A stretch of DNA of 64,000 nt from Enterobacter hormaechei subsp. hoffmannii (lineage in GTDB: Bacteria; Pseudomonadota; Gammaproteobacteria; Enterobacterales; Enterobacteriaceae): contig NZ_CP017186.1 of assembly GCF_001729745.1 (NCBI RefSeq), positions 2,852,001 to 2,916,000 on the forward strand. The letters are read 5' to 3'. The position numbers were made by a program, and so were the translations under genes. Position 1 is the first letter of the stretch, and each line of letters begins with the position of its first letter. Below are positions 1 to 23,140 of this stretch, in pieces. Below the pieces are notes generated by a model. The model ran no database searches and was not told the DNA's origin. It worked only from the letters and a program-made list of their open reading frames with translations.

Positions 1-821
1 CAAATGGTCTGAACGACTTCAATATTTTTCTTCTCGTTATGGCCGCCAATATTATAGGTTTCGCCCGGCTTACCCGTGGTCAGAACCGTATACAGTGCAC
101 GAGCATGATCTTCAACGTATAACCAGTCACGGATTTGATCGCCCTTACCGTAAATCGGCAATGGTTTATTATCCAGCGCATTAAGGATAACAAGAGGGAT
201 CAGCTTTTCAGGAAAGTGGTATGGGCCATAATTATTCGAACAATTTGTCACAATCCCAGGTAAACCATAGGTGCGTATCCAGGCTCGAACTAAATGGTCG
301 CTGGACGCTTTTGACGCTGAGTAAGGGCTGCTTGGCTGGTACGCTGTGTTCTCGGTAAACAGCGGTAACGGGGTGGAATCAGAATGTTCATCGGGATGAG
401 GCAGATCGCCGTAAACCTCATCAGTTGAAATGTGATGGAAACGGAAAGTAGATTTTGCTGTCTCATCCAGTGAAGACCAGTAAGCACGGCTCGTTTCTAA
501 CAGGTTATACGTGCCAACAATATTGGTTTCAATAAACGCAGCGGGACCGGTAATAGAACGGTCGACATGGCTCTCGGCAGCCAGGTGCATTACCGCATCA
601 GGCTGATGGGTAGCAAAAATACGCGCCATTGCCTCTTTATCACATATATCGGCATGCTCAAAAACATAGCGCTCGCTATCGCTTACTTCACGCAAGGATT
701 CCAGATTACCGGCATAGGTCAATTTATCAACGTTAACAACGCTATCCCGAGTATTGCTAATAATATGTCGGATAACCGCGGAACCGATAAAACCGGCACC
801 GCCAGTAACTAGAATTTTCAC
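1..821 (-). CDS. rfbB: dTDP-glucose 4,6-dehydratase RfbB (RmlB), 3' end cut by window
   Basis: Converts dTDP-glucose to dTDP-4-keto-6-deoxyglucose, the second step of dTDP-L-rhamnose synthesis in the cytoplasm. The visible 273 codons begin with the NAD-binding Rossmann motif GGAGFIG (residues 7-13), carry the catalytic TDE triad (133-135) and the YSASK motif (Tyr167, Lys171), all placed as in E. coli RmlB (about 360 aa). The start is GTG at 821; the only nearby upstream ATG (833) runs into TAG after two codons. A GGAA ribosome-binding sequence lies just before the GTG. It lies 89 bp downstream of gnd with the gnd terminator between, so its promoter must lie within gnd or it depends on read-through. 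The last quarter of the protein lies outside the window. Confidence 0.95.
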
Positions 822-861
822 GCAATCTATTCCATTAAACAGTAGGTGGATCGGGTAAGAT

Positions 862-889
862 AAAAAAGCCCGGTATCGCTACCGGGCTT
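862..889 (-). terminator. Rho-independent terminator after gnd
   Basis: A perfect 10-bp stem (866-875 with 880-889) has a four-base loop and, read on the minus strand, is followed by a run of T (862-867). It sits 21 bp beyond the gnd stop codon and 41 bp before the rfbB start, so it separates gnd from the rhamnose genes unless it is read through. Confidence 0.85.
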
Positions 890-910
890 GATGGCATGGC
901 TAACCGTATA

Positions 911-2317
911 TTAATCCAGCCATTCGGTGTGGAACACACCTTCTTTATCCGTACGCTTATAAGTATGCGCACCGAAGTAGTCACGCTGTGCCTGAATCAG
1001 GTTCGCTGGCAGAACGGCAGCACGATAGCTGTCGTAGTACGCCACCGCAGCGGAGAAGGTTGGAACCGGGATACCATTCTGCACCGCGTACGCAACAACA
1101 TCACGCAGCGCCTGCTGATATTCGTCTGCAATCTGCTTGAAGTAAGGCGCCAGCAGAAGGTTGGCGATACCCGCATTTTCAGCATAGGCATCGGTGATTT
1201 TTTGCAGGAACTGGGCGCGAATGATACAGCCGGCACGGAAGATCTTCGCAATCTCACCGTAGTTCTGATCCCAGTTGTTCTCGTCTGAAGCTGCACGCAG
1301 CTGAGAGAAGCCCTGCGCGTAAGAGACGATTTTACCCAGGTACAGTGCACGACGGACTTTTTCAACGAATTCAGCTTTGTCACCAGCTGGTTTAGCCTGC
1401 GGGCCGGACAACACTTTGGATGCCGCAACGCGCTGCTCTTTCAGAGAAGAGATATAACGTGCAAATACGGATTCGGTGATCAGAGATAATGGCTCACCCA
1501 GATCCAGAGAGCTCTGGCTGGTCCATTTACCGGTACCTTTGTTCGCCGCTTCATCCAGAATCACATCAACCAGGTATTTACCCTCTTCATCTTTCTTGGT
1601 GAAGATATCTTTGGTGATGTCGATCAGGTAGCTGTTCAGCTCGCCTTTGTTCCACTCGGTGAAGGTCTTTGCGAGCTCCTCGTTGGAGAGATTCAGACCG
1701 CCCTTCAGCAGAGAGTAGGCTTCAGCAATCAGCTGCATATCGCCGTATTCAATGCCGTTGTGAACCATTTTCACGTAATGACCAGCGCCATCAGGACCGA
1801 TATAGGTCACGCACGGCTCGCCGTCTTCAGCTACGGCTGCGATTTTAGTCAGGATTGGCGCAACCAATTCGTACGCTTCTTTCTGACCGCCAGGCATGAT
1901 TGATGGACCTTTCAGAGCGCCCTCTTCACCACCGGATACGCCGGTACCAATGAAGTTGAAACCTTCAGCAGACAGTTCACGGTTACGACGAATGGTGTCC
2001 TGGAAGAAGGTGTTGCCACCATCAATAATGATGTCGCCTTTATCCAGATACGGTTTCAGTGAATCGATAGCTGCATCGGTACCTGCGCCCGCTTTCACCA
2101 TTAACAGGATACGACGAGGTGTTTCGAGAGACTCAACGAACTCTTTAACCGTATAGAAAGGAACCAGTTTCTTGCCTGGATTCTCAGCGATGACTTCTTC
2201 GGTCTTATCACGAGAGCGGTTGAAAATGGAGACGGTATAACCACGACTTTCGATGTTAAGCGCTAGATTGCGCCCCATCACCGCCATACCGATAACGCCG
2301 ATCTGTTGTTTGGACAT
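911..2317 (-). CDS. gnd: 6-phosphogluconate dehydrogenase, decarboxylating
   Basis: Oxidative pentose phosphate pathway enzyme: 6-phosphogluconate + NADP+ gives ribulose 5-phosphate, CO2 and NADPH. It is 468 aa, exactly the E. coli length. The N-terminal Rossmann motif is [11 protein letters not shown] (residues 7-17); the substrate and catalytic segment [11 protein letters not shown] lies near residues 183-193; the C-terminal tail [16 protein letters not shown], which reaches into the partner subunit in the dimer, is intact. Its ATG is preceded by a good AGGAGCAC ribosome-binding site. As usual in enterics it closes the polymorphic galF-gnd O-antigen interval. It has its own promoter and terminator, so it is a housekeeping gene beside the surface-polysaccharide locus. 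Confidence 0.98.
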
Positions 2318-2373
2318 TTAGTGCTCCTGTCAGGTGATTCGCTGTAACTACTGCATTAAAATGAAACTCATAG

Positions 2374-2403
2374 CATATAAATTAATTAATTTCGTAGTGT
2401 CAA
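2374..2403 (-). promoter_or_regulatory. Predicted sigma-70 promoter of gnd
   Basis: On the minus strand a perfect -35 TTGACA (2398-2403) is followed after 18 bp by TATATG (2374-2379). It lies about 55 bp upstream of the gnd ATG, in the gap after the last O-antigen gene. This fits the growth-rate controlled gnd promoter known in E. coli. The -10 choice is uncertain. Confidence 0.6.
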
Positions 2404-2445
2404 TCAAGAACTTCTTGAGTCTCTTTGTAAAAATAATATTTCCCA

Positions 2446-3261
2446 TTATTTGGTGGCACGCATATATGAATAAATATCCCTAAGAATACTTAATGGTAAA
2501 AGACGAACAAAGACCCTTAACGCCAAGGTAATTAAACCATTATACCATCGAACAATTTTCAGTTTATTTTTTAAATGAAAAAGTTGAATTTCACTTTTTA
2601 TATAGGCAGTTCCCTTACGCCTTTTAATCATTCCGTCCCCACCGCGTACCTTAACTAAAACATCCGATAAGTTCTGGACTATTCTTCCACTCGCCAATAC
2701 TCTTAACCAAAGATTGTAGTCTTCCATAAACAAATGATGTTGGTAACCACCTACTTCTTGTATTATTGATTTTTTAAACATAACCGTCATATGATTAAAG
2801 GGATTCCTTTTCTTAGCAAAAGCTAATATATCTGCATAATTTTCCGGAGTTTTCCTTATGCCTTTAACAATAGTCATGGATTCGTCGTATTCTTCTATGG
2901 CACCGCCTAATAATTGCAGATTAACATTTTCATTAAATTTACTTAATTGCAATGAAAAACGGTTTTGTTCGCATATATCATCGGTGTCCATGCGAGCCAC
3001 TAGGTCATTAGAACAATATTGCAAACCAATATTCAATGCAGAACCGAGACCAACATTTTCTTTGATATTTACTGTCTTAATAGGTAATTTTTCACTCCAC
3101 ATTGCAATTTCATTATTTAACTTATCTGAAATCGGTCCATCGATCACGATAATTATTTCATTTGCAGGAGAAGTTTGTTTTGCGAGGCTATCTAGACAAC
3201 TTCTTAAATATTCTACTTTCTCGCGACTATAGATAGACATTAAGACAGAAAAATCAGTCAT
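2446..3261 (-). CDS. GT2 family glycosyltransferase (AmsE-like), O-antigen locus
   Basis: Probable cytoplasmic-face glycosyltransferase that adds one sugar to the growing lipid-linked O unit. At 271 aa it has a GT-A fold pattern: N-terminal FSVLMSIY, metal-binding MDTDD (residues 91-95), NPFNHMTVMF (153-162) and the acceptor-side MEDYNLW motif (179-185), which together resemble amylovoran/colanic acid transferases of the AmsE type. A hydrophobic stretch near the C-terminus (about 243-262) may attach it to the membrane. It is the last gene of the O-antigen block and overlaps the preceding gene by 8 bp. The base composition is AT-rich, unlike gnd. Donor and acceptor sugars cannot be read from the sequence. 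Confidence 0.85.
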   Translation of the reverse strand: MTDFSVLMSIYSREKVEYLRSCLDSLAKQTSPANEIIIVIDGPISDKLNNEIAMWSEKLPIKTVNIKENVGLGSALNIGLQYCSNDLVARMDTDDICEQNRFSLQLSKFNENVNLQLLGGAIEEYDESMTIVKGIRKTPENYADILAFAKKRNPFNHMTVMFKKSIIQEVGGYQHHLFMEDYNLWLRVLASGRIVQNLSDVLVKVRGGDGMIKRRKGTAYIKSEIQLFHLKNKLKIVRWYNGLITLALRVFVRLLPLSILRDIYSYMRATK

Positions 3262-4120
3262 TCACAAAGTCCTTACCATTTATTTCATGATGCTTATTGA
3301 GAAAAATTATAAGCTCTTCTTCATTCATCGAAAACTTTCTCCCCCAAAACCTATCCAAAGGGAAGTCCTCATCATGTTTCAAATATAGTGGATTTTTAGA
3401 GCCAGTCCATTTTATATAAAACAAATTGTCGGAAACTATTTCTTTCTTCCAAATTGAATTAGCAATAAGCGTATGAAAAAAAACCTCATCAGCACATACG
3501 CTTTTATCCATTTTACTTATTTTTTTGTCGATATTACTGTTGAGTAACCAAGAAACGGTTTCTCTCTTTAATGTAAACCAAGGAGAGCCTTTATAAATTT
3601 TCTGACCATGAAAAGTAGTATTTTTTATACCAAAAAAGGCTAATAAAAAACCTAAAAAGAGAGATAACTTACGTATTAAAACTTTCTTAGAAAAGATTGA
3701 GGAATTAACAAATAAGTTTAAGTTCTCGACTCTAAATCTCATTTTTTCTTGATTGGAATAGCTTATTAGATTTTTGTTTTTATTATTAACTTCAGCAATA
3801 AAAAGAGATAAATTTTTCAATGGAAAGCATTCGCCACTTATATGAGTGAAATATTTATTCTCACAAATTTTGAACGACTCTTTGAGTAGTGCGTAAATGG
3901 CTTTTAGTTGAGAATAATGTCCCCAAAAAATTTTTTGCCTGTCTTCAAGAACTGTGATCTTGGTTAGTTTTTCATCCTGAACGAAATTTTTTATAGCTTG
4001 ATAAATATCTTCATATTTAGCATCTACATGAATATAGACATTACCATGCTCATTTAAAAGTTTACATAATGTGGCAAACTGGACAGTAAATTTATGGGTT
4101 TGAATAAGAAAAGCATGCAT
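3254..4120 (-). CDS. GT14 (core-2/I-branching type) glycosyltransferase, O-antigen locus
   Basis: A 288-aa protein with the signatures of the 'Branch' family (GT14): HVDAK (residues 31-35), WGHYSQLKA (66-74), HISGECFPLK (93-102) and GSPWFTLKRE (178-187). Family members transfer GlcNAc, xylose or related sugars with inverted stereochemistry, often making branches; that role is inferred here. There is no signal peptide. A hydrophobic segment near 150-165 could be a membrane-associating helix. It sits between two GT2 genes with 11 bp to the one upstream and an 8-bp overlap downstream, so it is translated as part of the O-antigen operon. AT-rich composition suggests lateral origin. Confidence 0.8.
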   Translation of the reverse strand: MHAFLIQTHKFTVQFATLCKLLNEHGNVYIHVDAKYEDIYQAIKNFVQDEKLTKITVLEDRQKIFWGHYSQLKAIYALLKESFKICENKYFTHISGECFPLKNLSLFIAEVNNKNKNLISYSNQEKMRFRVENLNLFVNSSIFSKKVLIRKLSLFLGFLLAFFGIKNTTFHGQKIYKGSPWFTLKRETVSWLLNSNIDKKISKMDKSVCADEVFFHTLIANSIWKKEIVSDNLFYIKWTGSKNPLYLKHDEDFPLDRFWGRKFSMNEEELIIFLNKHHEINGKDFVND

Positions 4121-4131
4121 AGTTTTTCTCG

Positions 4132-5013
4132 TTACGCGTATTTATAAAATTTTTTGATTATTTTACCAGGAATCAAACACAACACTGAGGCTTTTAAACT
4201 GAAATTGTTGATAAGTGATAAAAAACCATATTTGATCTTATCTTTTTCAGAACTAGATGAAGCTGAAATGGCCACTCGAAGATAGATATTAGCTTTGAAT
4301 GCGCGTTTAAGTTTTCCATCAATGTATTGATTATACTTATTTAAGAGGTAATTACCTGCTTCAAGATATCTACAATAATTGGAACTAATTTGTTTTCCGT
4401 CTTCATGAACAGTGTACAGAACACCATAATCATGATCATTCAAGACTTTTGACAAGGAAGACATTCGAATCCAAAGGTCGTAATCTTGCAGACATTTAAG
4501 ATTAACATCAAACCGCCCCGCGCTTTCAAATATCTCTTTTCGAATTAGTGCACGAGACGTCGAACCGATCAGATTACCTGATTTTAGGAGGTCTGATTGT
4601 GTAACAACATCTGATTTGCACTTAACTTTCCTAGAAATTTTTGTCAGGTTCTTACTGCTAACAATATCAACACCTGTAAAAACTATGCCGACATCTGGAT
4701 TTTTGTTTATCAAATCGAGCCTTTTTTTAAAGGTATGAGGATAAAAGGCATCATCATCATCTAATAAAAAAATTAAATTTGTTTCGGCCGTATCGATACC
4801 AAGATTTCTGGAATAGTTGGCACCTTTAGAAGCTTTGTTATTTATTATAATATATTTTATAGAAGTAGGTGGCAGGTCTTGTTCAGCAATCTCTATACCA
4901 CCATCATTAACAATTACAATATCATATGGTAAGATACTAGAATTAACGATACTTTGAACAGCTCTTAATAAGTATGATTTTCTATCTTTAGTGGTTATTA
5001 CAACAGTAAACAT
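4132..5013 (-). CDS. GT2 family glycosyltransferase, O-antigen locus
   Basis: About 293 aa. The N-terminus reads MFTVVITTKDRKSYLLRAV, a classic start of the GT2 fold, followed by nucleotide-binding IVNDGG (about 34-39), SKGANYSRNLGI and the metal-binding DDDD run (85-88), and later the LQDYDLWIRM motif. I chose ATG 5013; an in-frame ATG at 5028 would add MRLKK and has no better ribosome-binding site. Either start lies inside the end of wzy (26- or 41-bp overlap), implying translational coupling. It probably adds one sugar of the O unit at the inner face of the membrane; the sugar is unknown. Confidence 0.82.
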   Translation of the reverse strand: MFTVVITTKDRKSYLLRAVQSIVNSSILPYDIVIVNDGGIEIAEQDLPPTSIKYIIINNKASKGANYSRNLGIDTAETNLIFLLDDDDAFYPHTFKKRLDLINKNPDVGIVFTGVDIVSSKNLTKISRKVKCKSDVVTQSDLLKSGNLIGSTSRALIRKEIFESAGRFDVNLKCLQDYDLWIRMSSLSKVLNDHDYGVLYTVHEDGKQISSNYCRYLEAGNYLLNKYNQYIDGKLKRAFKANIYLRVAISASSSSEKDKIKYGFLSLINNFSLKASVLCLIPGKIIKKFYKYA

Positions 5014-6163
5014 TTTCTTTAATCTCATTTTTTTCAGTAGTTAAAGCATTATAACTGACCACACCTAAAAGAAAAAATACTACACTACTACTCGCAAAAT
5101 CATTCGAAATCATCCAACTCATAAATGAATAGCAAAACAAAACAATTGCGAACAAACTAAATTCACAGTAATTTCTCTTACATTTGTTTATAGCCTTAGA
5201 TAGTATATAAACAATGTAAAACATAAATAAAAAACAACCAATCAAGCCAGAATTTAATGCAATTTCAAGTAAAATATTATGTGGATAAGGTTCAGTTATA
5301 TAGTTCGTGTAATTACCATAGCCTATACCAAATGGATTGTCTAAAATAATCTTAATACACTGGGAGTATAGTTCGTATCTACTATCATTACTAAATTGCT
5401 CCATACTTTGCATTTTATTTATGAAATAACCACTTAGGTTATTAATTATAAACGGCAAGGATAATAAGACAATCAAACCAAATATTGATAGTAGTAATAT
5501 TACTTTTTTCGCAGAAATATGTTTCCTGAAAATAACCATAAGTATAGCGCATAGTAATAGAGGTAGAAATATAGCGGTTCTACTCCCCGCAAATAAAATA
5601 TTATAAAAAATAAAGAGAATTAAAAGAAGTCTTGATAAGTTACGCTCACTATTGACATTAAAACTTTTAAATAAATACCATGTTACTACAGTTGCCAAAG
5701 GCAAAGTAAAATTCAAATGATTATACTCAATACCATCGGAATAATTAATTAGTCCCATGAGATTAGCGCAAGAAAGAAGTATGGCCCATATGGTCATAAA
5801 TATAACACAATATTTTTTTACAAAACTTCCACCTAGTACAATTCCAAATATAAATGCTAAGTTAACAGAAATTACGCGAATCAATGTTTCAAGAGAAAAT
5901 GCTGAATTTAAAAAATAAATATATTGAATACTAAAAAAAAAGCATATGTATATAATTGCTAAAACTTTATTGAAATTTACTTTTATTCTTCTTTTAAATC
6001 CCAGAAGAAGAAGCAATAAACAACATATAAAAAATGGGACTAAGTTTATTAATGCCGATTTATATATAAATTTTAGGCTTGGATTCATCACATACGCAAA
6101 AAATGCAAAAGATGCTATTATCGCGTAAATACTATTTGTGTTATTAAAGGATTTTATTTGCAT
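4988..6163 (-). CDS. wzy: O-antigen polymerase Wzy
   Basis: A 391-aa polytopic membrane protein with about ten or more predicted membrane segments. It carries the landmarks of the Wzy/WaaL superfamily: a GSRT sequence (193-196) opening a membrane helix, then a large periplasmic loop containing NPFGIGYGNY (about 273-282) and a PHN..LE motif. Position next to wzx inside the galF-gnd interval supports Wzy rather than the WaaL ligase, which is encoded elsewhere in enterics. It would join O units at the periplasmic face by block transfer. Its start overlaps wzx by 20 bp and its end overlaps the next glycosyltransferase. Strongly AT-rich. Confidence 0.85.
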   Translation of the reverse strand: MQIKSFNNTNSIYAIIASFAFFAYVMNPSLKFIYKSALINLVPFFICCLLLLLLGFKRRIKVNFNKVLAIIYICFFFSIQYIYFLNSAFSLETLIRVISVNLAFIFGIVLGGSFVKKYCVIFMTIWAILLSCANLMGLINYSDGIEYNHLNFTLPLATVVTWYLFKSFNVNSERNLSRLLLILFIFYNILFAGSRTAIFLPLLLCAILMVIFRKHISAKKVILLLSIFGLIVLLSLPFIINNLSGYFINKMQSMEQFSNDSRYELYSQCIKIILDNPFGIGYGNYTNYITEPYPHNILLEIALNSGLIGCFLFMFYIVYILSKAINKCKRNYCEFSLFAIVLFCYSFMSWMISNDFASSSVVFFLLGVVSYNALTTEKNEIKENVYCCNNH

Positions 6164-7415
6164 ATCTCACCAAAAATACTGGATTGACTCCACGGAATAA
6201 TGAAGCAATAAATGGCCAATCTTTTTTGTAAACAAAATAACCGAAATTCGCAATCATGTAACCGCTAGCAGTGCTCAGTGCTACCAAATAAATATTTTTA
6301 TACACAACTACGGCGATCAATGTCAACATAACATTTATTATTGATGCAATGAAAGTTTTATTTAATTCTGCTGCATAATTGCGTTGAATTATCAGGTGTT
6401 TCCCAGAAATTGGCCCAAGAAAAACAAATATTAAGCTTGCAATATGTATTAAAAAAAGATTATAAGCTGAAGTATATTCTTCGGAAAAAAACATGTAAAA
6501 GATTTCTTTTCCAAAGAATACTGTTACAAGTACTATTAAGATATAAATAAAAGTGATACCTCCAGCTATAAAGGAAAGTAATTCATAATAATCAGCTTTA
6601 TTTTGTATCCATTTTTTTGATAAATTTGCAAAAAAAGTACTAACTACTATTGCTGATATAAATACTAATGGAGTAGCTAATCTTGTTGATGCATAAAATT
6701 CCCCAGCTTCTTTATCGCCAAGTACTGCACCAATTATGATAATATCTAACTGTGTAAATAAACTAATGACTATCGTTGAAAGAGCAAGCTTATAATTTAT
6801 CTTTAATAAAACTAACGATTTTTTATAATTAAAACGGAATCCTAAAAGCTTTAACTTATCAAAAAAGATAAAATACATGAAAAAGGTAAGGAAGTCAGTT
6901 AAAAAGTATGAAACAGCTACCCAAAAGACATCAAGTTTTTGAACGACACAATACAATCTGAAGCCATTTATTAATGTCAAAGAAAAGAATTTTGAAATTG
7001 CATAATCTTTAAATCTCCCCTGACCTTCAACAAAATTATAATAAATATCGAGGCTAAAGAAAAATTTCCCTAGCAAAAAAGGAATAGCAAGAATTAAAAG
7101 ATTGGGCTTTATTATATAAATAAGCAAAAAAGATATAACTAAAAATACAATATAGCCACAAAAGCGAAGCGAAATACTATCCTTGAACTTTCCTGAAATT
7201 AGATTGTAATTGTTTGATCTGCTTACAAAATTTGAAAAAACTGGACCTATACCTAAAGTAGTTAAAAAACTTAACAACATGCATAAATTTATTAAAAACC
7301 CTATTTTCCCTTGTTCAGTGGGACCCAAATAATTTATAATAGCTATTCCAATTGTTAGATTTAATAAAAGCTCATATATTTTAGGCGTAAAAGACCAAAA
7401 GAACTGATATTTCAT
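6144..7415 (-). CDS. wzx: O-antigen flippase Wzx
   Basis: A 423-aa protein composed almost entirely of hydrophobic helices (about 12), of the MATE-like polysaccharide transporter type. It would move undecaprenyl-PP-linked O units from the cytoplasmic to the periplasmic side of the inner membrane. Support: early YLGPTEQGKIGF segment typical of Wzx proteins near residues 29-40, length in the usual 400-450 range, and the neighbouring wzy. It is separate from the colanic acid flippase WzxC at 14582-16060, to which it shows no obvious similarity. It starts 2 bp after the upstream glycosyltransferase and overlaps wzy. AT-rich. Confidence 0.88.
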   Translation of the reverse strand: MKYQFFWSFTPKIYELLLNLTIGIAIINYLGPTEQGKIGFLINLCMLLSFLTTLGIGPVFSNFVSRSNNYNLISGKFKDSISLRFCGYIVFLVISFLLIYIIKPNLLILAIPFLLGKFFFSLDIYYNFVEGQGRFKDYAISKFFSLTLINGFRLYCVVQKLDVFWVAVSYFLTDFLTFFMYFIFFDKLKLLGFRFNYKKSLVLLKINYKLALSTIVISLFTQLDIIIIGAVLGDKEAGEFYASTRLATPLVFISAIVVSTFFANLSKKWIQNKADYYELLSFIAGGITFIYILIVLVTVFFGKEIFYMFFSEEYTSAYNLFLIHIASLIFVFLGPISGKHLIIQRNYAAELNKTFIASIINVMLTLIAVVVYKNIYLVALSTASGYMIANFGYFVYKKDWPFIASLFRGVNPVFLVRYANKIL

Positions 7416-7417
7416 AA

Positions 7418-8161
7418 TTAATCTCTAACTAATTTGAAAATTTTTCTAATTATTTTTAATGCTTTCTTTGGTAGTAGTTTTTTTAAGTAATAATATTTTT
7501 CATGCGGATTGTTTTTACTTAATATATGGGCATCCCATCCTATATGTTCGACAGCGCTTTCATCTAGTAACGCCATGTTCATTCCTAATCGAAGAAAATG
7601 CTCACTTATTTCTCTCTCATGGCCTATATTGGAGAAGGCTATAACTTTTTCTTTATAGTCACTCGTACGTCTAAGCCCGGGATTGAAAGAATAACCGCCC
7701 CATACTTCTTTATCCCGCCCCTTAATTTTATGGAAAATAATTTGATTCTTAGTTGAGCATTTTTCCATCAGCTCAAGAAAACAATTTACAGATACATCTT
7801 TTTCCCAGTCACGAAGCGAAACCATTGATATATCTGGATACTCCATTAGTATTTCTAAAGAATCTTCAACAAATCCATTTCTGTAGAAAAACCAATCGTC
7901 TTCGCAATGGAAAATATAATCGCTAGTTACAGTTTTATAGGCTTTGTCGATACTTTTGATTTGTCCTAGATTTTTTTCATTAATGATTATAATGAATTCG
8001 TCTCCATATTTTTTTTCGATTTCTTTGATTACGTTATTTTTACCCGAATCTTCAATTATGATTTTTTGATCAAACTTGTATTTATCACATAAGGATTTTA
8101 TGGTGTGATCCAAAAGATCCAATCTTCCACAACTTGTGATGACCAAACTAACCGTATTCAT
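7418..8161 (-). CDS. GT2-like glycosyltransferase, first gene of the O-antigen operon
   Basis: 247 aa with a GT-A start (NTVSLVITSCGRLDLL), IIIEDSG near residues 34-40 and an HCEDDW motif (85-90) in the place of the DxD metal site. The C-terminal end is lysine-rich (KKLLPKKALKIIRKIFK), suggesting contact with the membrane surface. It is the first gene after the JUMPStart leader and is followed at 2 bp by wzx. Its sugar specificity is unknown. With three further transferases and a WecA-started primer, a repeat unit of up to five sugars would be expected; that count is an inference. Confidence 0.8.
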   Translation of the reverse strand: MNTVSLVITSCGRLDLLDHTIKSLCDKYKFDQKIIIEDSGKNNVIKEIEKKYGDEFIIIINEKNLGQIKSIDKAYKTVTSDYIFHCEDDWFFYRNGFVEDSLEILMEYPDISMVSLRDWEKDVSVNCFLELMEKCSTKNQIIFHKIKGRDKEVWGGYSFNPGLRRTSDYKEKVIAFSNIGHEREISEHFLRLGMNMALLDESAVEHIGWDAHILSKNNPHEKYYYLKKLLPKKALKIIRKIFKLVRD

Positions 8162-8181: not shown

Positions 8182-8220
8182 CACGCTACCGCCCCTGGCT
8201 TGATAGCTACCAGAGTGCGA
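8182..8220 (-). promoter_or_regulatory. JUMPStart element with ops site, O-antigen operon leader
   Basis: Read on the minus strand this matches the enteric JUMPStart sequence, ending in the ops core GGCGGTAGCGTG (8182-8193). It lies 21 bp upstream of the first glycosyltransferase gene. In E. coli the ops core pauses RNA polymerase and loads the antiterminator RfaH, which is needed to transcribe long polysaccharide operons. The exact 12-base core is visible here; RfaH dependence is inferred from the family. Confidence 0.93.
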
Positions 8221-8370: not shown

Positions 8371-9264
8371 TTATTCATGTAAAAGGTTTTCAATGCACTT
8401 CCTGAACTTCGCCCCTTCCTTCAGGTTACGCAGACCGTAGTTCACAAAAGCCTGCATATACCCCATTTTCTTACCGCAGTCATAGCTGTCGCCGGTCATC
8501 AGCATAGCATCAACCGACTGCTTTTTCCCCAGCTCAGCAATCGCATCGGTCAGCTGGATACGCTCCCAGGCACCCGGCTTAGTTTTTTCCAGTTCGGCCC
8601 AGATATCCGCATTCAGCACATAACGGCCGACGGCCATCAGGTCAGAGTCCAGGGTCTGCGGCTGATCGGGTTTTTCGATAAACTCAACGATCCGGCTCAC
8701 CTGCCCTTCCGTCTCCAGCGGCTCTTTAGTCTGAATAACAGAGTACTCAGAGAGATCGCCCTTCATACGTTTCGCCAGCACCTGGCTGCGACCCGTCTCG
8801 TTGAAGCGTGCGACCATTGCCGCCAGGTTGTAACGCAGCGGATCGGCAGAGGCGGTATCAATGATGATATCGGGTAGAACCACGATGAACGGGTTATCAC
8901 CCACCACCGGCCGCGCGCACAGAATCGAGTGGCCCAGACCCAGCGGCTGCGCCTGGCGCACGTTCATGATGGTCACGCCAGGAGGACAAATAGACTGAAC
9001 TTCTGCCAGAAGCTGACGCTTAACACGCTGCTCAAGCAGCGCTTCGAGTTCATAAGAGGTGTCGAAGTGGTTCTCGACGGCGTTCTTAGAAGAGTGCGTC
9101 ACCAGAACGATTTCTTTAATCCCAGCAGCAACAATCTCGTCGACGATGTATTGAATCATCGGCTTGTCAACGATCGGCAGCATCTCTTTTGGAATGGCTT
9201 TTGTGGCGGGCAACATGTGCATGCCCAGACCCGCTACCGGTATAACTGCTTTCAAATTGGTCAT
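8371..9264 (-). CDS. galF: GalF, UTP-glucose-1-phosphate uridylyltransferase-like subunit
   Basis: 297 aa, the same length as E. coli GalF. It is the GalU paralogue thought to modulate UDP-glucose pyrophosphorylase activity rather than being fully active itself. The sequence shows why: the GalU nucleotide motif GLGTRMLP reads GLGMHMLP (residues 12-19), replacing Thr-Arg with Met-His, while [12 protein letters not shown] is kept. I use ATG 9264 (MTNLKAVIP); an in-frame ATG at 9276 would add MEDK but E. coli GalF begins at MTNLK. It marks the left border of the O-antigen locus; the O-antigen leader begins right after its stop. Confidence 0.95.
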
Positions 9265-9416
9265 TTTATCTTCCACCTTAAAATGGTTGACGAAGTATAG
9301 ACCTAATCAGGAAAATTGCCCGATCAAGAAGTCTACTACGCCTTATGCAAATCACGTTTCGCGCTAAAACTCACATTACTAAACATGAGTATGCATTAAG
9401 TGTGACCCAGAATTAT

Positions 9417-9479: not shown

Positions 9480-10475
9480 TTATTCAGATACAAACGTGAT
9501 GTCATCTTTCTTCTCATGAACGAACTCATACTTCAGCGTACGGTCCAGACCTTGAGATAAGGTATAAGGCGCTTTAAATCCAGAGCGGTGTACCTTGGTC
9601 GCGTCAAACTGTGTAGTTGCACAGAATTTCTTCACGCGCACAGAGCTTATTGCATATTTCTTCCCGGTAACTTTGCTAAGAATGTCAAAGCAATACCCAC
9701 CTAACATACCAAGCGGGTAAGGAAGATGAACAGAAGGGATTTTTTTATTGAGACTCTTCTCAACTTCTGAAACTAACTGATTCATGTTCAGGTCTGGTTT
9801 GTCTACATAGTTGTAGACATCATAACCCGGCTTAACATTGGTCAGCTTAAATTTGATAAATTCAACAATGTTACCTACATAAGCCATTGATTTATAGTTG
9901 GTTCCAGCGCCTACCATGGCGAATTTACCACCTGCAATTTGCTTAAGCAGGTTATACACGTTTCCACGGTTACGCTCACCGAAGATGACCGTAGGCCGGA
10001 CAATTGTCAGGGATCGTTCCTCTGGAGCTTTATTAAACCACTCGCGCAGAACTTCTTCCGCTTGCCATTTGCTTTTGCCGTAATGGTTGAAAGGATCATG
10101 GGGATGGGATTCGTCAGGGTTCACTTTGTTAAGACCATACACAGCCACAGAACTGGTAAAAATAATGTTCTGAACGTAATTTTTTTCCATAGCAGACAAT
10201 ACGTTACGAGTACCCTGTACGTTTACATCGTAGTATAGCGTTGTTGGGCTAACGTCATCACGGTGCTCAGCGGCGAGCAGCACGACAGTATCAAAACCAG
10301 CAAGCGCCTGATCGAGTTGATCCTGATTACGAACATCACCGGAAACAGTAATATCCGGATAAAAATGACTTTGCTGTTTGTCGAAGTTAGTAACATCAAA
10401 ATCAGTCTTGGAAATCTCGATTAAACGAGTGCCGACAAAACCAGACGCGCCAATAAACAAAACCTTATCGTTCAT
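9480..10475 (-). CDS. gnu: GlcNAc-P-P-undecaprenol 4-epimerase Gnu
   Basis: 331 aa, strongly similar along its length to E. coli O157 Gnu (Z3206), which also lies between wcaM and galF. It interconverts GlcNAc-PP-undecaprenol and GalNAc-PP-undecaprenol, letting WecA-started O antigens begin with GalNAc. Visible features are the GASGFVG nucleotide motif (9-15), a VTSSVAVYG-like strand (FTSSVAVYG), and the short-chain dehydrogenase YGKSK pair. The C-terminal KKDDITFVSE tail also matches. The 189-bp gap upstream (10476-10664) presumably holds its promoter, so it is not obviously part of the colanic acid operon. In this window it suggests an O unit starting with GalNAc, an inference. Confidence 0.92.
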   Translation of the reverse strand: MNDKVLFIGASGFVGTRLIEISKTDFDVTNFDKQQSHFYPDITVSGDVRNQDQLDQALAGFDTVVLLAAEHRDDVSPTTLYYDVNVQGTRNVLSAMEKNYVQNIIFTSSVAVYGLNKVNPDESHPHDPFNHYGKSKWQAEEVLREWFNKAPEERSLTIVRPTVIFGERNRGNVYNLLKQIAGGKFAMVGAGTNYKSMAYVGNIVEFIKFKLTNVKPGYDVYNYVDKPDLNMNQLVSEVEKSLNKKIPSVHLPYPLGMLGGYCFDILSKVTGKKYAISSVRVKKFCATTQFDATKVHRSGFKAPYTLSQGLDRTLKYEFVHEKKDDITFVSE

Positions 10476-13289: not shown

Positions 13290-14566
13290 TTCCCCTCCCG
13301 GACGCGGTCGAGTACGGATTTCACCATGCCAATACCTTTTTCGCGTTCGGCTTTTACCGCCACCGCCAGACGTTCGTTGATCGCAGGCAGCTGACCGAGC
13401 GTGTCGCCCACCATCGCACCCAGCGATCCGTCCAGCAGATGACGAATATCGACGGCCATTTCCGGCATACCGAGCTGCTGCATAATGCCTGCGGATTTGT
13501 GCTCGTAGTTGATAGCGATGGCTGGCGTGCCGAAGTTCATCGAGATAATGGCCGAGTGCAGACGCGTGCCCACGGTCAGGTCGCAGGCGGAGAGCAGCTT
13601 GCCCATCTCCAGGTCGTTCAGCTCGTCCATCACCACGTGGTAGCGGGATGGGTCGTTCACCAGGTTGCGCAGGTTGAGCGCCACCATGCGGTCATCTTTG
13701 TTGTAGCTGTCAATACCGGTACAGGTGGAGAGCGCCAGCACCTGGTAACCGCTGTCCAGCACGCGGTTCACCACCTCGGCAAAGGCTTTTTCATACGCAG
13801 CCTGAGTCGTGCCGAGGCGTTTATCGAAGGGCGCAAGTTCACGCAGGGTAATGGCGACGGTTTTCTGTTTTGCCGCCACGTCCAGCCAGTGCTGTACCGC
13901 GTAGCTGGCCTGGAAGCTGTCATCCTGATGATCCACCAGCCAGGCGGTGTCTACGCCGTGCTCCACTTTGGTGGTGTCGATTTCGCTGCGCTTCATCATG
14001 TCGAGGCTGACCGATTCGCGCAGGATCAGCGCGTCACAGTGGCCGAAGACATAGTTCGCCAGCTGGTTGAACTGCGGATCCTGGAACGGCCCGACGCTGT
14101 GGCCGATCATAAACAGCGGTTTTTTCGCCATAAAGGTGCAGAGCGCATGCTCAAATTGCGGCACGCCGTACAGGTCGACGAAGAACGAACCGCCCACCTG
14201 AATAATGGCGTCATAGCCGGACAGCAGACGCACGAAATCGGTAAAGCCCTGCGCGATGGCGATGTTGCGCAGCTTGCCGGTGTCGGTTACGCGAGAAAGC
14301 AGCACCTGATGCTGGTAGCGGCGACGCAGCACTTTCTTCACGCGCCCCATCACGCCCGCAGCGTTGTTGTGCTGTTTCATCTGGCTGTAGAGCGGGTCGC
14401 CCATCACCGGGCGGTTCAGTAACCAGGATGAGCTGACCGGATAACGGCTCATCACATCCACTTCTGTCTCAGGCTTAAGGGTGTTAATTGCATCCAATAA
14501 ACCGCGCAGGATGGCGCTGTCGCCACGGTTGCCGCAGGTATGGTTGCCAAGAATAAGTAATTTCAT
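13286..14566 (-). CDS. wcaK: Colanic acid pyruvyltransferase WcaK
   Basis: 426 aa, polysaccharide pyruvyl transferase family (PF04230 type, like AmsJ and CsaB). It adds the pyruvate ketal to the terminal galactose of the colanic acid side chain, giving extra negative charge. Visible landmarks: MKLLILGNHTCGNRGDSAIL at the N-terminus, GHSVGPFQDPQF near residues 154-165, and the C-terminal GTRLHSAIISMNFGTPAIAINY segment, the conserved part of the family. It lies 15 bp after wzxC and overlaps wcaL by 4 bp. Confidence 0.93.
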   Translation of the reverse strand: MKLLILGNHTCGNRGDSAILRGLLDAINTLKPETEVDVMSRYPVSSSWLLNRPVMGDPLYSQMKQHNNAAGVMGRVKKVLRRRYQHQVLLSRVTDTGKLRNIAIAQGFTDFVRLLSGYDAIIQVGGSFFVDLYGVPQFEHALCTFMAKKPLFMIGHSVGPFQDPQFNQLANYVFGHCDALILRESVSLDMMKRSEIDTTKVEHGVDTAWLVDHQDDSFQASYAVQHWLDVAAKQKTVAITLRELAPFDKRLGTTQAAYEKAFAEVVNRVLDSGYQVLALSTCTGIDSYNKDDRMVALNLRNLVNDPSRYHVVMDELNDLEMGKLLSACDLTVGTRLHSAIISMNFGTPAIAINYEHKSAGIMQQLGMPEMAVDIRHLLDGSLGAMVGDTLGQLPAINERLAVAVKAEREKGIGMVKSVLDRVREGK

Positions 14567-14581
14567 AATGGCCTCGTAAAA

Positions 14582-16060
14582 TTAGCCTGCGCGAAGCAGC
14601 GTTTTCATTTTTTCGTTACGGCAAAACTGGCGCTTTATCTCAACCACCAGCGCATTGCGTGACAGTACAATCATCACGCCGAATGCCAGCGCGCCTGCCG
14701 CGACCTGCACCGCAAGCAGCGCCGCCAGCGGCAGATGCCCGTTGAGCACCACGCCCAGGCCGTAGCTCACCGCAAGCGTCGGTAAGGAGAGATAGAACGG
14801 CAGCCACAGGCTGAGGATGTACTGACGGTAGCTGGAGCCCAGCACCGGTTTGATCATCACGAAGTAACTCAGCACGGTATTGACGATCTGCACCAGCAGG
14901 AAGCCGAGCGTCACGCCAATGGCACCCGCCATGTGCCCGCCCACAATAATTGCCGGAATAAACAGGAAGGTTTTAAACACGTTGAACTTGAAGCTGATAT
15001 CCACGCGCGCCTTCGCCATCAGCAGAGAACCAATCGGGTTCCCCACCGAGCGCAGCAACCCCACAACGCACAGCAGTTGCAGGATTGGGATGATGCTGTT
15101 CCACTTCTCGCCAAACACCAGCGGTACGAAATTGCTGGCGACCACCATCAGCCCCAGCAGTACCGGGAAGTTGATGATCCCCACCACGGAGAGCAGCTTG
15201 TAAAAGTTCACACGCAGCTTCTCGGTATCGTCCTGAATTTTGGCGAACGCCGGGAACAGCACGCGGGTAATGATTGGGTTGAGCTTCATCGGTGGGACAA
15301 CCGCGACGTTATACGCCAGGTTGTAGCCGCCCGCGACGCTCGCGCCCAGAATGCGCGCCAGCACCAGCGTAGAGAGGTTAGTATTCACATAGTTGATAAT
15401 GCTGTCTGCCGTCAGCCACGCGCCGAAGCGCAGGTTGGATGAAACAGACGCCAGCGAAAAATGCAGTCCCGGGCGATAAATCTTGCGGCCAAAGAAGCCA
15501 AACAGCAGCGTGCGCACGGCAGAGTTAACGAGGTAGCCGAGAATGGCGGTCATCGCCAGCGGCCAGAAATGGGCGCTGACAACGGTGAAGGTAAAGCCCG
15601 CCAGCACGGCGCTGGTTTCAATCATGCCGATCTTGTTGAACTCCAGCTCTTTCTGCATCAGCGCGCGGAACTGCTGCCCGTGCGGGATCACCACGAAAGC
15701 AAACGACAGGGTGCGCATCAGCGGCGCCAGGTCCGGGTTATGCAGCACGCCGGCAATCACATCGCTCAGCAGGAACACCAGCACAAAGACGAAGATACCC
15801 AGCCCAACGTTCAGCCAGTAGAGGGTGGTCAGCTCAAGATGGCTGATCTCTTTGCGCTGGATAATGGAGTTGGCGATACCAAAGTCCGACAGCGTATCGG
15901 CCAGGGCGATAATCACCAGCGAGACGGTCAGCAGACCAAACTGGTGGTTATCGATAATGCGCGCCAGCACCGTCATCTGCACCAGGCCGAGGCCAATGAT
16001 GACGATGGTGGTCATGGCTGACCATTTTGCGCCGCTGATGGTTTTTTCTCGTAAGCTCAT
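14582..16060 (-). CDS. wzxC: Colanic acid flippase WzxC
   Basis: 492-aa integral membrane protein with about 14 hydrophobic helices, of the PST/MATE-like lipopolysaccharide exporter family. It moves undecaprenyl-PP-linked colanic acid repeat units across the inner membrane. The N-terminus SLREKTISGAKWSAMTTIVIIGLGLVQ and the following ARIIDNHQFGLL element match the E. coli protein of the same length. It starts 1 bp after wcaJ ends and sits between the initiating transferase and the side-chain modifying enzymes, the standard wca order. Confidence 0.95.
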   Translation of the reverse strand: MSLREKTISGAKWSAMTTIVIIGLGLVQMTVLARIIDNHQFGLLTVSLVIIALADTLSDFGIANSIIQRKEISHLELTTLYWLNVGLGIFVFVLVFLLSDVIAGVLHNPDLAPLMRTLSFAFVVIPHGQQFRALMQKELEFNKIGMIETSAVLAGFTFTVVSAHFWPLAMTAILGYLVNSAVRTLLFGFFGRKIYRPGLHFSLASVSSNLRFGAWLTADSIINYVNTNLSTLVLARILGASVAGGYNLAYNVAVVPPMKLNPIITRVLFPAFAKIQDDTEKLRVNFYKLLSVVGIINFPVLLGLMVVASNFVPLVFGEKWNSIIPILQLLCVVGLLRSVGNPIGSLLMAKARVDISFKFNVFKTFLFIPAIIVGGHMAGAIGVTLGFLLVQIVNTVLSYFVMIKPVLGSSYRQYILSLWLPFYLSLPTLAVSYGLGVVLNGHLPLAALLAVQVAAGALAFGVMIVLSRNALVVEIKRQFCRNEKMKTLLRAG

Positions 16061-19030: not shown

Positions 19031-20467
19031 CTACACCCGCCCGTAGCGGTCCTGGAAGCGCACGATATCGTCCTCTTCCAGATACGAACCGGAACGCACC
19101 TCAATTAAGTCGAGTGGAATTTTCCCCGGGTTTTCCAGGCAGTGCGTGGCACCCAGCGGAATATAAATGGACTCGTTTTCACCGAGCAGCTTCACTTCAC
19201 CGTTGATGGTCACTTTGGCGGTTCCCGCCACCACTACCCAGTGTTCGGCGCGGTGATGGTGCATCTGCACCGACAGCCCTTCACCCGGCTTCACGGTGAT
19301 GCGTTTCACCTGATAGCGCTCGCCAGCGTCGATGGAGTCATATTTGCCCCACGGGCGGTAGACTTCACGGTGAATATGGTGTTCGTGGCGGCCATCGGCC
19401 TTGATCTTCTCCACCACTTTTTTAACGTCCTGCACGGCATTACGGTCGGCAATCAGCACCGCGTCTTTGGTCTGCACGACCACCAGATCTTTCACCCCTA
19501 CCGTGGTGACAAGGCCAGATTCGGCGTAGACGTAGCTGTTTTCCGTTTTGTGGCTGATCACATCACCGTGATGGACGTTACCCTCCGGGGTATGCGCGCT
19601 AATCTCCCACAGTGACGACCAGGAGCCAACGTCGCTCCAGCCCGCATCCATCGGCACCACTACCGCATCTGCCGTACGTTCCATCACCGCATAGTCAATG
19701 GACTCTTCCGGACAGGCGAGGAAGGCTTCTTCGTCCACGCGGATAAAATCGAGATCCGGATCCACCACCGCCATCGCTTTTTCGCAGGCATGTAAGATAT
19801 CCGGGCGATATTTTTCCAGCTCTTCCAGATAGCGACCGGCGCGGAACAGGAACATACCGCTGTTCCAGTAGTATTCACCGCTGGCCACGTAGGCCTGGGC
19901 GGTTTCCAGATTCGGTTTTTCGACAAACTGCGCCACGTCAAAGGCCACGCTGTCGCCTTCACCAGGCGTAACGCTGCCGCGGCGAATGTAGCCATAGCCG
20001 GTTTCCGGGAGATCCGGCACGATGCCGAAGGTCACCAGCTTGCCGTTCTCAGCGTAAGGAATCGCCGCGCGAACCGCGTCGCGGAAGGCGTCTTCCTGCT
20101 GAATAACGTGGTCAGCCGCCAGCACCAGCATCAGCGGGTCGCAGTCCGGGCTGCTGCGTTTTGCCGCCAGCGCCGCAAGAGCAATAGCAGGCGCGGTGTT
20201 GCGTCCGGCAGGCTCCAGAATGATATTTTCGGTCAGTTTATTCAGCTGGCGCAGCTGCTCGGCAACGATAAAGCGGTGCTGCTCGTTACAGATCACCACC
20301 GGGCTTTCACACTCCACGCCGTGCAGACGGTTAACCGTCGTTTGCAGCATGGTGAGGTCCCCCTTCAGGCACAGAAATTGTTTTGGATAAAGCACGCGGG
20401 ACAGTGGCCACAACCGGCTCCCGGATCCACCCGCCATTACGACCGGATACAAAGTGGTTTGACTCAT
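19031..20467 (-). CDS. cpsB: Mannose-1-phosphate guanylyltransferase ManC (CpsB)
   Basis: 478 aa, same length as E. coli CpsB. Makes GDP-mannose from mannose 1-phosphate and GTP. The N-terminal nucleotidyltransferase domain has the signature [20 protein letters not shown] (residues 13-32) and FVEKP near 181; the C-terminal part is a cupin ([19 protein letters not shown]) typical of type II isomerase/guanylyltransferases. In E. coli the protein is mainly a guanylyltransferase. It begins 3 bp after wcaI ends and supplies Gmd with substrate. Confidence 0.96.
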
Positions 20468-20470
20468 GAT

Positions 20471-21694
20471 TTATCCCCGTATATCTGCAATAAATTGGCT
20501 CAGCACGTTCTCTTTCTCGAGCGTGCGTTCGGCATATTCACGTGCCACCGTGTTCTCTTTTGGCATGGCGAGTGCCTGCTCAATTCCGGTCACCAGCGCA
20601 GGAACCGATTCTGGCTCTACGCAAACGGCAATGCCCGGGTAGCTGTTGCACAGCTGGCCTAATTCTGTTGCGGCTTCTGCCGTAATCACCGCATTTCCGC
20701 CCACTGCCAGAATGTTGGTCAGCTTAGACGGCAGCACCGCATCCGCCGCGCCGCGTTTTTGCACCACCAGATGGCAATCTGCCATTTTCAGCAGCGCGGG
20801 CAGCGCGTCATAAGACTGAAGCGGGAAGAAGCGGATGTTGGTCAGTCCGCGCTCGCTGGCCATTTTTTCCAGCCGCGCTTTACCCCCGCCCTGCCCGACT
20901 ATCACGAACATCCACGGGTGTTCGCTCAGCTGAAGCGCGGCGTCAATCACGCTCTCCAGCCCCTGTTTTTCGCCGATGTTGCCTGAGTAAAGAATGATTT
21001 TTTGATCTTCAGGCAAACCGAGCTGCGCGCGTAACGCCTGCGCATCCTGGTCTGTCACATCGCGGAAACGCGCCACTTCGGACCAGTTCGGAAAGAAGAT
21101 CACCTTCTCCGCCGGGACACCCTTCTCCTGCGCCTTGTTCATCATCGAGCGCGAGATGGTCGAGACGTAATCCACGTTGTGCAGGCCGCTGCGCTCAAAG
21201 GCGCTGGCGAGCTTCGCCACCTTGCCGCCCTTGCCTTTCCCGGCCATCCCCAGTCCGAGCATGGCGTCCACTTCATAATCCTGAATGTGCAGCAGGGTGC
21301 GCGCGCCGGAGAGTTTGCCCAACAGGCGCATGCCTGGCGTGCAGAACAGGGTCGGCACCACGCCGATGATGCGATCCGGCTTCCAGCGACGTTGCGCCAT
21401 CAGCGGGAAGAAACTGCTCAGGGCAAAGCTGCCCAGATGAATTAAACGTTTCAGCGTCGAGGGCTGTTTCGGCACGTAGAGCGGGCAGCGCCAGACGGTC
21501 GCAGCCCCCTCTTCGCGGCGGTAGCGCCAGCTGGAATAGCGTTCGCCTACCTTCCACTCCGGGTAATACGGCGGGGCAGTAATCACCCGCACGTCATGTC
21601 CCTGGCTCGCCATCCACTCGACCATCTCGCCGGTGTATTTCCCGATACCGGTAAGCTCCGGCGAGTAGTTAATTCCGTAGACGAGGATTTTCAT
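20471..21694 (-). CDS. wcaI: Colanic acid glycosyltransferase WcaI
   Basis: 407-aa GT-B (GT4-like) transferase. In the reported E. coli pathway WcaI adds fucose to the glucose-PP-undecaprenol primer. Visible landmarks: [27 protein letters not shown] at the N-terminus, [17 protein letters not shown] in the donor domain and the following [22 protein letters not shown] segment. The last part ([19 protein letters not shown]) contains the phosphate-binding loop. It overlaps gmm by 4 bp. No sign of truncation. Confidence 0.94.
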
Positions 21695-22173
21695 AGGCCT
21701 GGCACCTCGGCCTGACGTTCCGCAAGGAAGTACGCCCGACTGTTGTCATGGACGTTGTCGCTTGCCAGCAGCGCCTCTGGCGTTAACCAGCGGTAATCGT
21801 CATGCTGAGAATCAGGCAGACGCAGGTCTGCCTCACTCACCTTCAGGCGGAACCCCAGCACGACATAGTGCGTGGTGAACCCGGTGCCCGAAAAGTTATC
21901 GTCATAGAAGTGCTGCCAGACCCCGTAAAACTGGCCCGCTGCCATCGGCAGTTGCAGGCCCAGTTCCGCCAGAGTGAGACGCTCAAACGCATCGCTTAGC
22001 GTCTCATCCTTCTGCACGCGCCCGCCGGGCACGAACCAGAAGCCCTGTGCAGGACGATTGGTTCGTTTCCCCAGCAAGAACTCGCCGCGTTCGTTCTCCA
22101 CGATCAAATCAATTGAGATGAGCGGAGTGGAACGCACCACCGTGGCAAAATCTTCCTGACTTAAAAACATCAT
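21691..22173 (-). CDS. gmm: GDP-mannose mannosyl hydrolase Gmm (WcaH)
   Basis: About 160 aa (159 in E. coli). Nudix-type enzyme that hydrolyses GDP-mannose and GDP-glucose to GDP and free sugar, probably balancing GDP-sugar pools for fucose synthesis. The Nudix-like stretch [24 protein letters not shown] (about residues 50-73) is the variant form of this family, which acts by displacement at carbon rather than phosphorus. The start overlaps the fcl stop as TAATG at 22173; a second ATG at 22170 is equally possible. The ATGA at the end overlaps wcaI. Confidence 0.94.
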
Positions 22174-23138
22174 TACCCCCGGAAGCGGTGCTGGTTTTCC
22201 AGGAACCACTGGTAGGTGCTGGCCAGCCCCTGCTCCAGTGAGACCTCGTGATACCAGCCCAGCTGATGCAGACGGGTCACGTCCAGCAGCTTGCGCGGCG
22301 TGCCGTCCGGTTTGGTGGCATCAAACACCACGCGTCCTTTGTAGCCCACCACCTGCGCGATGGTCTGCGCCAGCTCACGAATGGTGCAGTCCACGCCGGT
22401 CCCGACGTTAATGTGCGACAGCATCGGCTCGGTGTTTTCCTGCCACACCTCGCGATCCAGCTCCATGACGTGAATGCTGGCTGCCGCCATATCGTCCACG
22501 TGCAGGAACTCGCGCATTGGCGTGCCGCTGCCCCACACCACCACGTCCGGGGCGTTTTCGGCAGTCGCCTCGTGGAAACGACGCAGCAGCGCCGGGATCA
22601 CGTGCGAATTGCTCGGGTGGAAGTTGTCGTGCGGTCCGTAGAGGTTGGTCGGCATTACCGAGCGATAGTCGCGGTTATACTGACGGTTGTACGATTCACA
22701 CAGCTTGATCCCGGCAATTTTGGCAATCGCGTACGGCTCGTTGGTGGCTTCCAGCGTGCCCTGCAACAGTTCGCTCTCGGCGATCGGCTGTTTCGCCATT
22801 TTTGGGTAGATACAGGATGAACCGAGGAACAGCAGCTTGTTCACGTTGTGCAGATGCGCCGCGTGAATGATGTTGCTCTCAATCATCATGTTCTCGTAGA
22901 TGAAATCCGCCGGGTAGGTGTTGTTAGCGACAATGCCGCCCACCTTCGCCGCCGCCAGATACACCTGGTCGATACGTTCGCTGGCGAAGAAGTCCTGCAC
23001 CGCTTTGCTGTCAAGCAAGTTCAGCTCGTCGCGGGTGCGAACAATCACCTCAACGTCGCCCCGCTGTTCAAGCTGGCGGACAATCGCGGAACCCACCATT
23101 CCGCGATGACCGGCGACAAAAATACGTTGTTTTGTCAT
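22173..23138 (-). CDS. fcl: GDP-L-fucose synthase Fcl (WcaG)
   Basis: 321 aa, identical length to E. coli. NADPH-dependent 3,5-epimerase/4-reductase converting GDP-4-keto-6-deoxymannose to GDP-L-fucose. The Rossmann motif is [10 protein letters not shown] (residues 10-19), with SSCIYP near 107-112 and the catalytic YAIAK pair (Tyr136, Lys140). It follows gmd after 2 bp, so substrate and product genes are directly coupled. Confidence 0.97.
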
Positions 23139-23140
23139 TC

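Follow-up and report, generated by a model that had tools for sequence, protein, structure and literature searches.

A compact O-antigen cluster of Enterobacter hormaechei related by sequence to that of Escherichia coli O174 and carrying a GT14-family gene

According to DebRoy et al. (PMC4732683), the O174 cluster is the smallest O-antigen gene cluster of Escherichia coli, with five genes in 5.6 kb. For Enterobacter cloacae, Li et al. (PMC7198725) describe the clusters of 26 serotypes, which lie between galF and gnd, measure 4.5-16.3 kb and contain 5-16 open reading frames (ORFs); 17 of the 26 are without an initial transferase gene, and 25 carry wzx/wzy by the authors' count. Therefore, a compact layout should be considered ordinary. 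The same source names four E. cloacae/E. coli cluster pairs at 55-97% identity. In this study, we analyzed a 64,000-nucleotide stretch of Enterobacter hormaechei subsp. hoffmannii (contig NZ_CP017186.1, positions 2,852,001 to 2,916,000; hereafter, the window), in which six genes between galF and gnd form a Wzx/Wzy O-antigen cluster of known kind.

As judged from its genes and their order, we consider this cluster to be a diverged counterpart of the O174 cluster from outside E. coli. Five of the six genes are collinear with those of an E. coli O174 locus (L011) at 54-67% protein identity, and the identity to a second O174 allele group is 53-67%. Both clusters have the order transferase, wzx, wzy, transferase, gap, transferase between galF and gnd, and neither includes sugar-making genes. 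In place of the 575-578 bases of O174 that contain no annotated gene, however, the window has a gene of the GT14 family.

The galF-gnd cluster and its counterpart in E. coli O174

The features of the locus are as follows.

1..821, minus strand: rfbB/rmlB, extending past the window edge (TIGR01181, 502.4 bits; 13736-14821 of the extended locus L009)
911..2317, minus strand: gnd, flanking gene (TIGR00873, 757.7 bits)
2446..3261, minus strand: last glycosyltransferase, GT2 (PF00535, 74.5 bits; 57.9% to the O174 gene)
3254..4120, minus strand: GT14/Branch-family transferase, extra compared with O174 (PF02485, 78.7 bits, cut-off 23.4)
4132..5028, minus strand: second glycosyltransferase, GT2 (PF00535, 67.9 bits; 58.5% to the O174 gene)
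4988..6163, minus strand: wzy, O-antigen polymerase (PF04932, 68 bits; 54.0% to the O174 family polymerase)
6144..7415, minus strand: wzx, O-unit flippase (PF01943, 43.3 bits; 66.7% to the O174 family flippase)
7418..8161, minus strand: first glycosyltransferase, GT2, counterpart of the O174 first transferase (PF00535, 46 bits; 61.7%)
8182..8215, minus strand: JUMPstart element between galF and the first transferase gene (2 mismatches in 34)
8371..9276, minus strand: galF, flanking gene, ATG start probably at 9264 (TIGR01105, 667.9 bits, cut-off 659.2)
9480..10475, minus strand: gnu, undecaprenyl diphosphate (UndPP)-N-acetylglucosamine (GlcNAc) 4-epimerase (87.6% to the E. coli galF-linked gene)

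The six coding sequences span 2446-8161, and their common strand places transcription in the direction from galF towards gnd. All six are ORFs throughout, and each has a Pfam match over the cut-off (PF00535 for three transferases, PF02485 for the fourth, PF04932 for wzy and PF01943 for wzx); galF and gnd each score above their NCBIfam cut-offs. The first-pass annotation of this DNA, which described the galF-gnd interval as containing just wzx, wzy and four transferase genes, is thus borne out: its coordinates are exact and the domains are confirmed. Its view that the O-antigen locus relies on sugars made elsewhere, with Gnu, also holds. Gnu is encoded beside galF, and no nucleotide-sugar gene was found between gnd and galF among the ORFs of at least 100 amino acids. 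The true start of the second GT2 gene is probably at about 5013, and its alignment with O174 starts at the sixth codon. The GC content of the cluster is 25-36%, compared with 41-61% in flanking segments of up to 16 kb on each side; such AT-richness is usual for O-antigen clusters. The JUMPstart motif, scored with what we take to be its consensus, had no match in 100 shuffles. The genes rfbB, rfbA, ugd, an SDR gene and wzzB follow gnd, partly beyond the window.

The stretch of wzy, wzx and the first transferase gene was matched in 26 of 5,426 complete E. coli genomes, at approximately 67% DNA identity in a word-11 search, and a search with the O174 genes themselves retrieved 26 genomes, each carrying an O174 family annotation. 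A megablast search with the whole cluster found six E. coli genomes, which is an undercount relative to the word-11 search; the notion of the O174 counterpart as a six-genome rarity was therefore rejected. The five shared genes of the two O174 allele groups are 92-97% identical (Wzx 96.7%, Wzy 96.3%). In contrast, the window Wzx and Wzy are 67% and 54% identical to their O174 counterparts, far under that range, and the gene set agrees with O174 in five of six genes in order, with the GT14 gene extra; by neither measure does the cluster fall within serogroup O174 itself. The two clusters also differ in that gnu beside galF is variable among O174 loci.

The gap of the O174 clusters (L011, 6536-7110; L072, 10199-10776) is AT-rich and approximately 89% identical between the allele groups. 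A collinear-looking 24-residue tblastn match (E 0.38) suggested that it is a remnant of a GT14 gene; this candidate was rejected because no score exceeded those of 300 shuffles (L011: local 44 vs. a shuffle mean of 53.5, global -105 vs. -103; L072: local 43 vs. 52.6, global -108 vs. -103.7). The annotation of E. coli EC5502 gives the last O174 transferase gene (L073, 9694-10197) a length of 504 bases, compared with 822 in strain 89-3156; the gene is possibly shortened.

Relatives were also sought in a genome collection with one genome per species, so that within-species variants are out of its view. No Wzx ortholog was found in the 60 other genomes of the genus (best match 70.8 bits vs. 851 for the window protein), and matches at E 0.001 occur in 6 of 61 genomes, including its own. 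Among 391 further genomes of the family, which were drawn from a larger set, Wzy had no ortholog (best other match 33.6 bits vs. 764; matches in 8 of 392, including its own). For Wzx, 49 pattern-matching stretches in the species genome collection included no true relative, and there was no close relative on plasmids (best 23%). The first transferase has three distant relatives (29-33%) in Moraxella, Acinetobacter and a Gracilibacteria bin; at the two of these three loci that were compared, the other five cluster genes had no match. Three of the four transferases were queried against a defence library, with no match.

The absence of Wzx and Wzy orthologs from these genus and family genomes, together with 26 E. 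coli matches at approximately 67% DNA identity, could be taken to indicate a new serotype unrelated to known ones, which is a stronger form of the first-pass suggestion of an undescribed serotype. We consider this unlikely because five genes are collinear with O174 and because E. cloacae/E. coli pairs over a similar range of identity have already been published (PMC7198725); the pairing with O174 adds a further example to a type already described. The milder suggestion survives in part. No near-identical locus was met in the collections searched, which exclude the 26 E. cloacae reference clusters and the 55 putative new types of PMC7198725, but the layout is that of an O174 counterpart and not of an unknown kind. 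Judged by their published description, the window cluster resembles those E. cloacae clusters in its galF-gnd placing and in size and ORF number. It differs in its partner, since none of the four E. coli counterparts listed in that paper is O174.

The GT14 gene, gnu and the first sugar

By its PF02485 match, the extra enzyme is assigned to the GT14 family. Within the genus, the gene occurs in 1 of 61 genomes, its own, and a profile built from this enzyme together with three of its relatives in E. coli found matches in 14 of 394 genomes of the order, including its own. In the underlying alignment, the window enzyme is 32% identical to the E. coli relatives, and Asp211-Glu212 and Arg261-Lys262 are invariant across the four proteins. 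What the enzyme shares with core-2 beta-1,6-GlcNAc transferase (C2GnT) and xylosyltransferase 1, both of the GT14 family, is a weak sequence likeness (E 0.00075 for xylosyltransferase 1; E 0.0015 for C2GnT, covering residues 18-114 only), and its Glu and Arg-Lys align with xylosyltransferase 1. These matches are too weak to choose between the two as a guide to donor or acceptor. In C2GnT, the catalytic base may be the Glu of the SPDE motif, and the diphosphate is stabilised by one Arg and one Lys (as described in PMC4202792); the Glu and Arg-Lys of the window enzyme may correspond to these positions. A fold prediction without an alignment gave a mean predicted local distance difference test score (pLDDT) of 35.7, which is too low for use.

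In E. coli, a GT14-family gene annotated as 'beta-1,6-N-acetylglucosaminyltransferase' lies behind gnd, between gnd and ugd, in 19 of 5,426 genomes (megablast), and three of the encoded proteins exceed the PF02485 cut-off with 60-61 bits. Seven of the 19 belong to O174, all in a single allele group, and the remaining 12 do not. We read 13 of these loci, namely four of the seven O174 loci and nine of the 12 others, the latter comprising eight O27 clusters and one KV7 cluster without a serogroup name. These genes share PF02485 and a position beside gnu-bearing O loci with the window gene; however, they sit behind gnd, whereas the window gene lies inside the cluster. In the O27 locus of strain SCU-316, gnu is whole, but the annotation splits the GT14 gene and several further genes into pieces. 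The unnamed cluster of KV7 (L077, 10230-16246) encodes an EpsG-family protein that is likely the polymerase, with gnu before galF and the GT14 gene behind gnd.

Overall, gnu occurs in 1,295 of the 5,426 E. coli genomes. It stands beside galF in all 13 GT14 loci read, although an insertion element interrupts it in one (L084). Seven of the 19 O174 genomes without a GT14 gene by megablast were also read, and gnu was absent from the interval covered, galF to wcaM, in all seven. Fisher's test of gnu against GT14 (13/0 vs. 0/7) gives 1.3e-5 for loci that are not independent, and shared descent can explain the association, as the loci represent four O-cluster types and related strains in which both genes flank one block. 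No account of the pairing came up in literature searches on GT14 enzymes in O-antigen work or on gnu in O27.

The presence or absence of gnu fits the prediction from chemistry in 104 of 115 E. coli serogroups, as PMC3682973 reports. The assignment of the window Gnu to the galF-linked clade D rests on its position and on its identity to an E. coli protein annotated as UndPP-GlcNAc 4-epimerase. A Gnu relative (E 1e-60 or better) occurs in 10 of 61 genus genomes, including its own and one with the gene in two pieces (G397), a count that does not consider the position of gnu in the other nine. Because Gnu is present here and in so few genomes of the genus, we consider N-acetylgalactosamine (GalNAc) to be the likely first sugar. 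Alternatively, the unit may start with GlcNAc; gnu would then be carried along with the galF flank, and GT14 would act at another place on the chain. The seven gnu-less O174 loci, which belong to the 96% allele group, point in this direction, and the high identity of the five shared genes between the gnu-bearing and gnu-less groups implies nearly the same transferases in both settings. A gnu gene linked to galF can be inherited separately from the cluster (PMC3682973). However, a gene found in only ten of 61 genomes is not a universal neighbour, and generally similar Yersinia pseudotuberculosis clusters with and without gnu differ in their first sugar according to the same source. We regard a GlcNAc start as somewhat improbable and continue with a GalNAc start.

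A more specific proposal is that gnu and GT14 are a working pair: the unit would start with GalNAc, a GT2 enzyme would extend it, and GT14 would add a beta-1,6 GlcNAc to this GalNAc, resulting in a GlcNAc-beta-1,6-(R)GalNAc branch similar to the core-2 O-glycan of humans. We consider this distinctly doubtful. If it were true, the pairing would exist in two arrangements: in the window, GT14 is a gene of the cluster itself, and in E. coli O27, KV7 and some O174 loci it follows gnd.

Rhamnose, rfbBA and the enterobacterial common antigen

The first-pass annotation predicted that the rfb genes after gnd supply rhamnose. This prediction fails, as NCBIfam searches found only rmlB and rmlA (rfbB and rfbA) there. 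No match to rmlC was obtained in the genome, and the same search matched 11 of 14 control genomes, six of them over the cut-off; for rmlD, nothing in the genome exceeded the cut-off (best 41.6 bits vs. 224), and nine of the 14 controls did. Therefore, the usual dTDP-L-rhamnose route is missing, and rhamnose would not be expected in the O-unit.

The enterobacterial common antigen (ECA) offers another role for the pair. ECA requires RmlB activity for 4-acetamido-4,6-dideoxygalactose (Fuc4NAc; PMC7439462), and RmlA/B and RffH/G are partly redundant according to the reviews PMC7439462 and PMC12212991. In this genome, the ECA cluster (L019, G000:C1:152500-172000) has the order rho-wecA-wzzE-wecB-wecC-wecD-wecE-wzxE-wecF-wzyE-wecG. 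The genes wecA, wecC, wecD and wecF were named by hmmscan, and wecE was identified separately; rho, wzzE, wecB, wzxE, wzyE and wecG are names that we presume. The genes rffG and rffH are absent from this cluster, in which wecC runs directly into wecD (at about 7782 of L019), and the genome has a single true RmlB, the next match having 30% identity. Given an ECA cluster without rffGH, only one RmlB and the need of ECA for RmlB activity, the rfbBA pair that follows gnd is most likely the source of dTDP-4-keto-6-deoxyglucose for ECA. The pair could instead be a relic of a lost rmlBDAC rhamnose operon without a present role, as the failure to find rmlD and rmlC would suggest. We find this very unlikely for the sole RmlB of a genome whose otherwise gene-complete ECA cluster lacks rffGH, and in a genus where none of 61 genomes is without RmlB.

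The supply of ECA by rfbBA may extend beyond this strain. All 61 genus genomes have RmlB over the cut-off, with 73 copies in total. Among the 60 that bear WecE, RmlB lies within 6 kb of WecE on the same contig in six and not in 54, although contig breaks could hide a few such neighbours; 45 have a single RmlB away from WecE. The six loci with RmlB beside WecE read wecC-rffG-rffH-wecD (30 of the 73 RmlB copies were viewed), and RmlB is within 6 kb of the SDR gene in 13 of 61 genomes, including the one studied here. An rmlBA pair outside the ECA cluster thus probably replaces rffGH in much of the genus. The literature searched made no mention of a loss of rffGH in this genus, which may nevertheless have been published.

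Proposed assembly and its implications

From the genes, their order, the absences and the relatives described above, we infer the sugars, linkages, order of action and ECA supply as follows. WecA of the ECA cluster (556.8 bits vs. an NCBIfam cut-off of 326) would start the unit by placing GlcNAc-phosphate on undecaprenyl phosphate, and Gnu would convert this GlcNAc to GalNAc. The three GT2 enzymes common to O174 would add common sugars, and GT14 would add one more, most likely as a side branch; up to four transferases acting after WecA and Gnu would yield an O-unit of up to five sugars. Wzx would flip the unit, Wzy would polymerise it, and WzzB (540.7 bits vs. 267) would set the length. The donors UDP-GlcNAc, UDP-glucose, UDP-galactose and UDP-glucuronic acid would come from genes outside the cluster, of which galE (495 bits vs. 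262) and ugd (780 bits vs. 757) cover UDP-galactose and UDP-glucuronic acid, and rfbBA behind gnd would make dTDP-4-keto-6-deoxyglucose for ECA. The SDR gene between wzzB and ugd, which may encode a UDP-glucuronate epimerase, had no NCBIfam match at 1e-80 or 1e-60. Elsewhere in the genome, part of the 131.6 kb second contig (G000:C2:1-20000, L071), which includes a beta-glucoside phosphotransferase system region, recurs in Klebsiella plasmids as well as in plasmids of E. pasteurii and E. bugandensis. Its best match is a plasmid of E. pasteurii (74% covered, 98.3%), and of 5,000 matching records counted, 2,865 are from Klebsiella and 469 from Enterobacter.

Several points weigh against this scheme. 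Gnu can occur without being needed (PMC3682973), and the O174 loci without gnu beside galF have nearly the same shared genes. For GT14, xylosyltransferase 1 scores slightly above C2GnT and is the sole kind found by the profile. The window also has manC, gmd and fcl (19031-24262), which belong to the colanic acid set, so that GDP-mannose or GDP-fucose could serve as donors too. The sequence does not fix in what order the four transferases act or which donors they use. Nevertheless, taken as a whole, an O174-counterpart Wzx/Wzy cluster with a GalNAc start, a GT14 branch, no rhamnose and rfbBA directed to ECA is the reading that we hold with good confidence.

The cluster is mostly ordinary, with a known relative, plus one unusual extra enzyme. 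With it, the O-antigen clusters that members of the Enterobacteriaceae have in common gain an O174 counterpart that is not from E. coli, and the analysis corrects a prediction of rhamnose that would mislead serology or chemistry. The rfbBA pair outside the ECA cluster is the likely ECA supplier in much of the genus. Moreover, the GT14 gene hints at a branch of the bacterial coat that resembles a human sugar structure, and if the pairing of gnu and GT14 is functional, it would provide a simple handle on a host-like branched sugar of bacteria.

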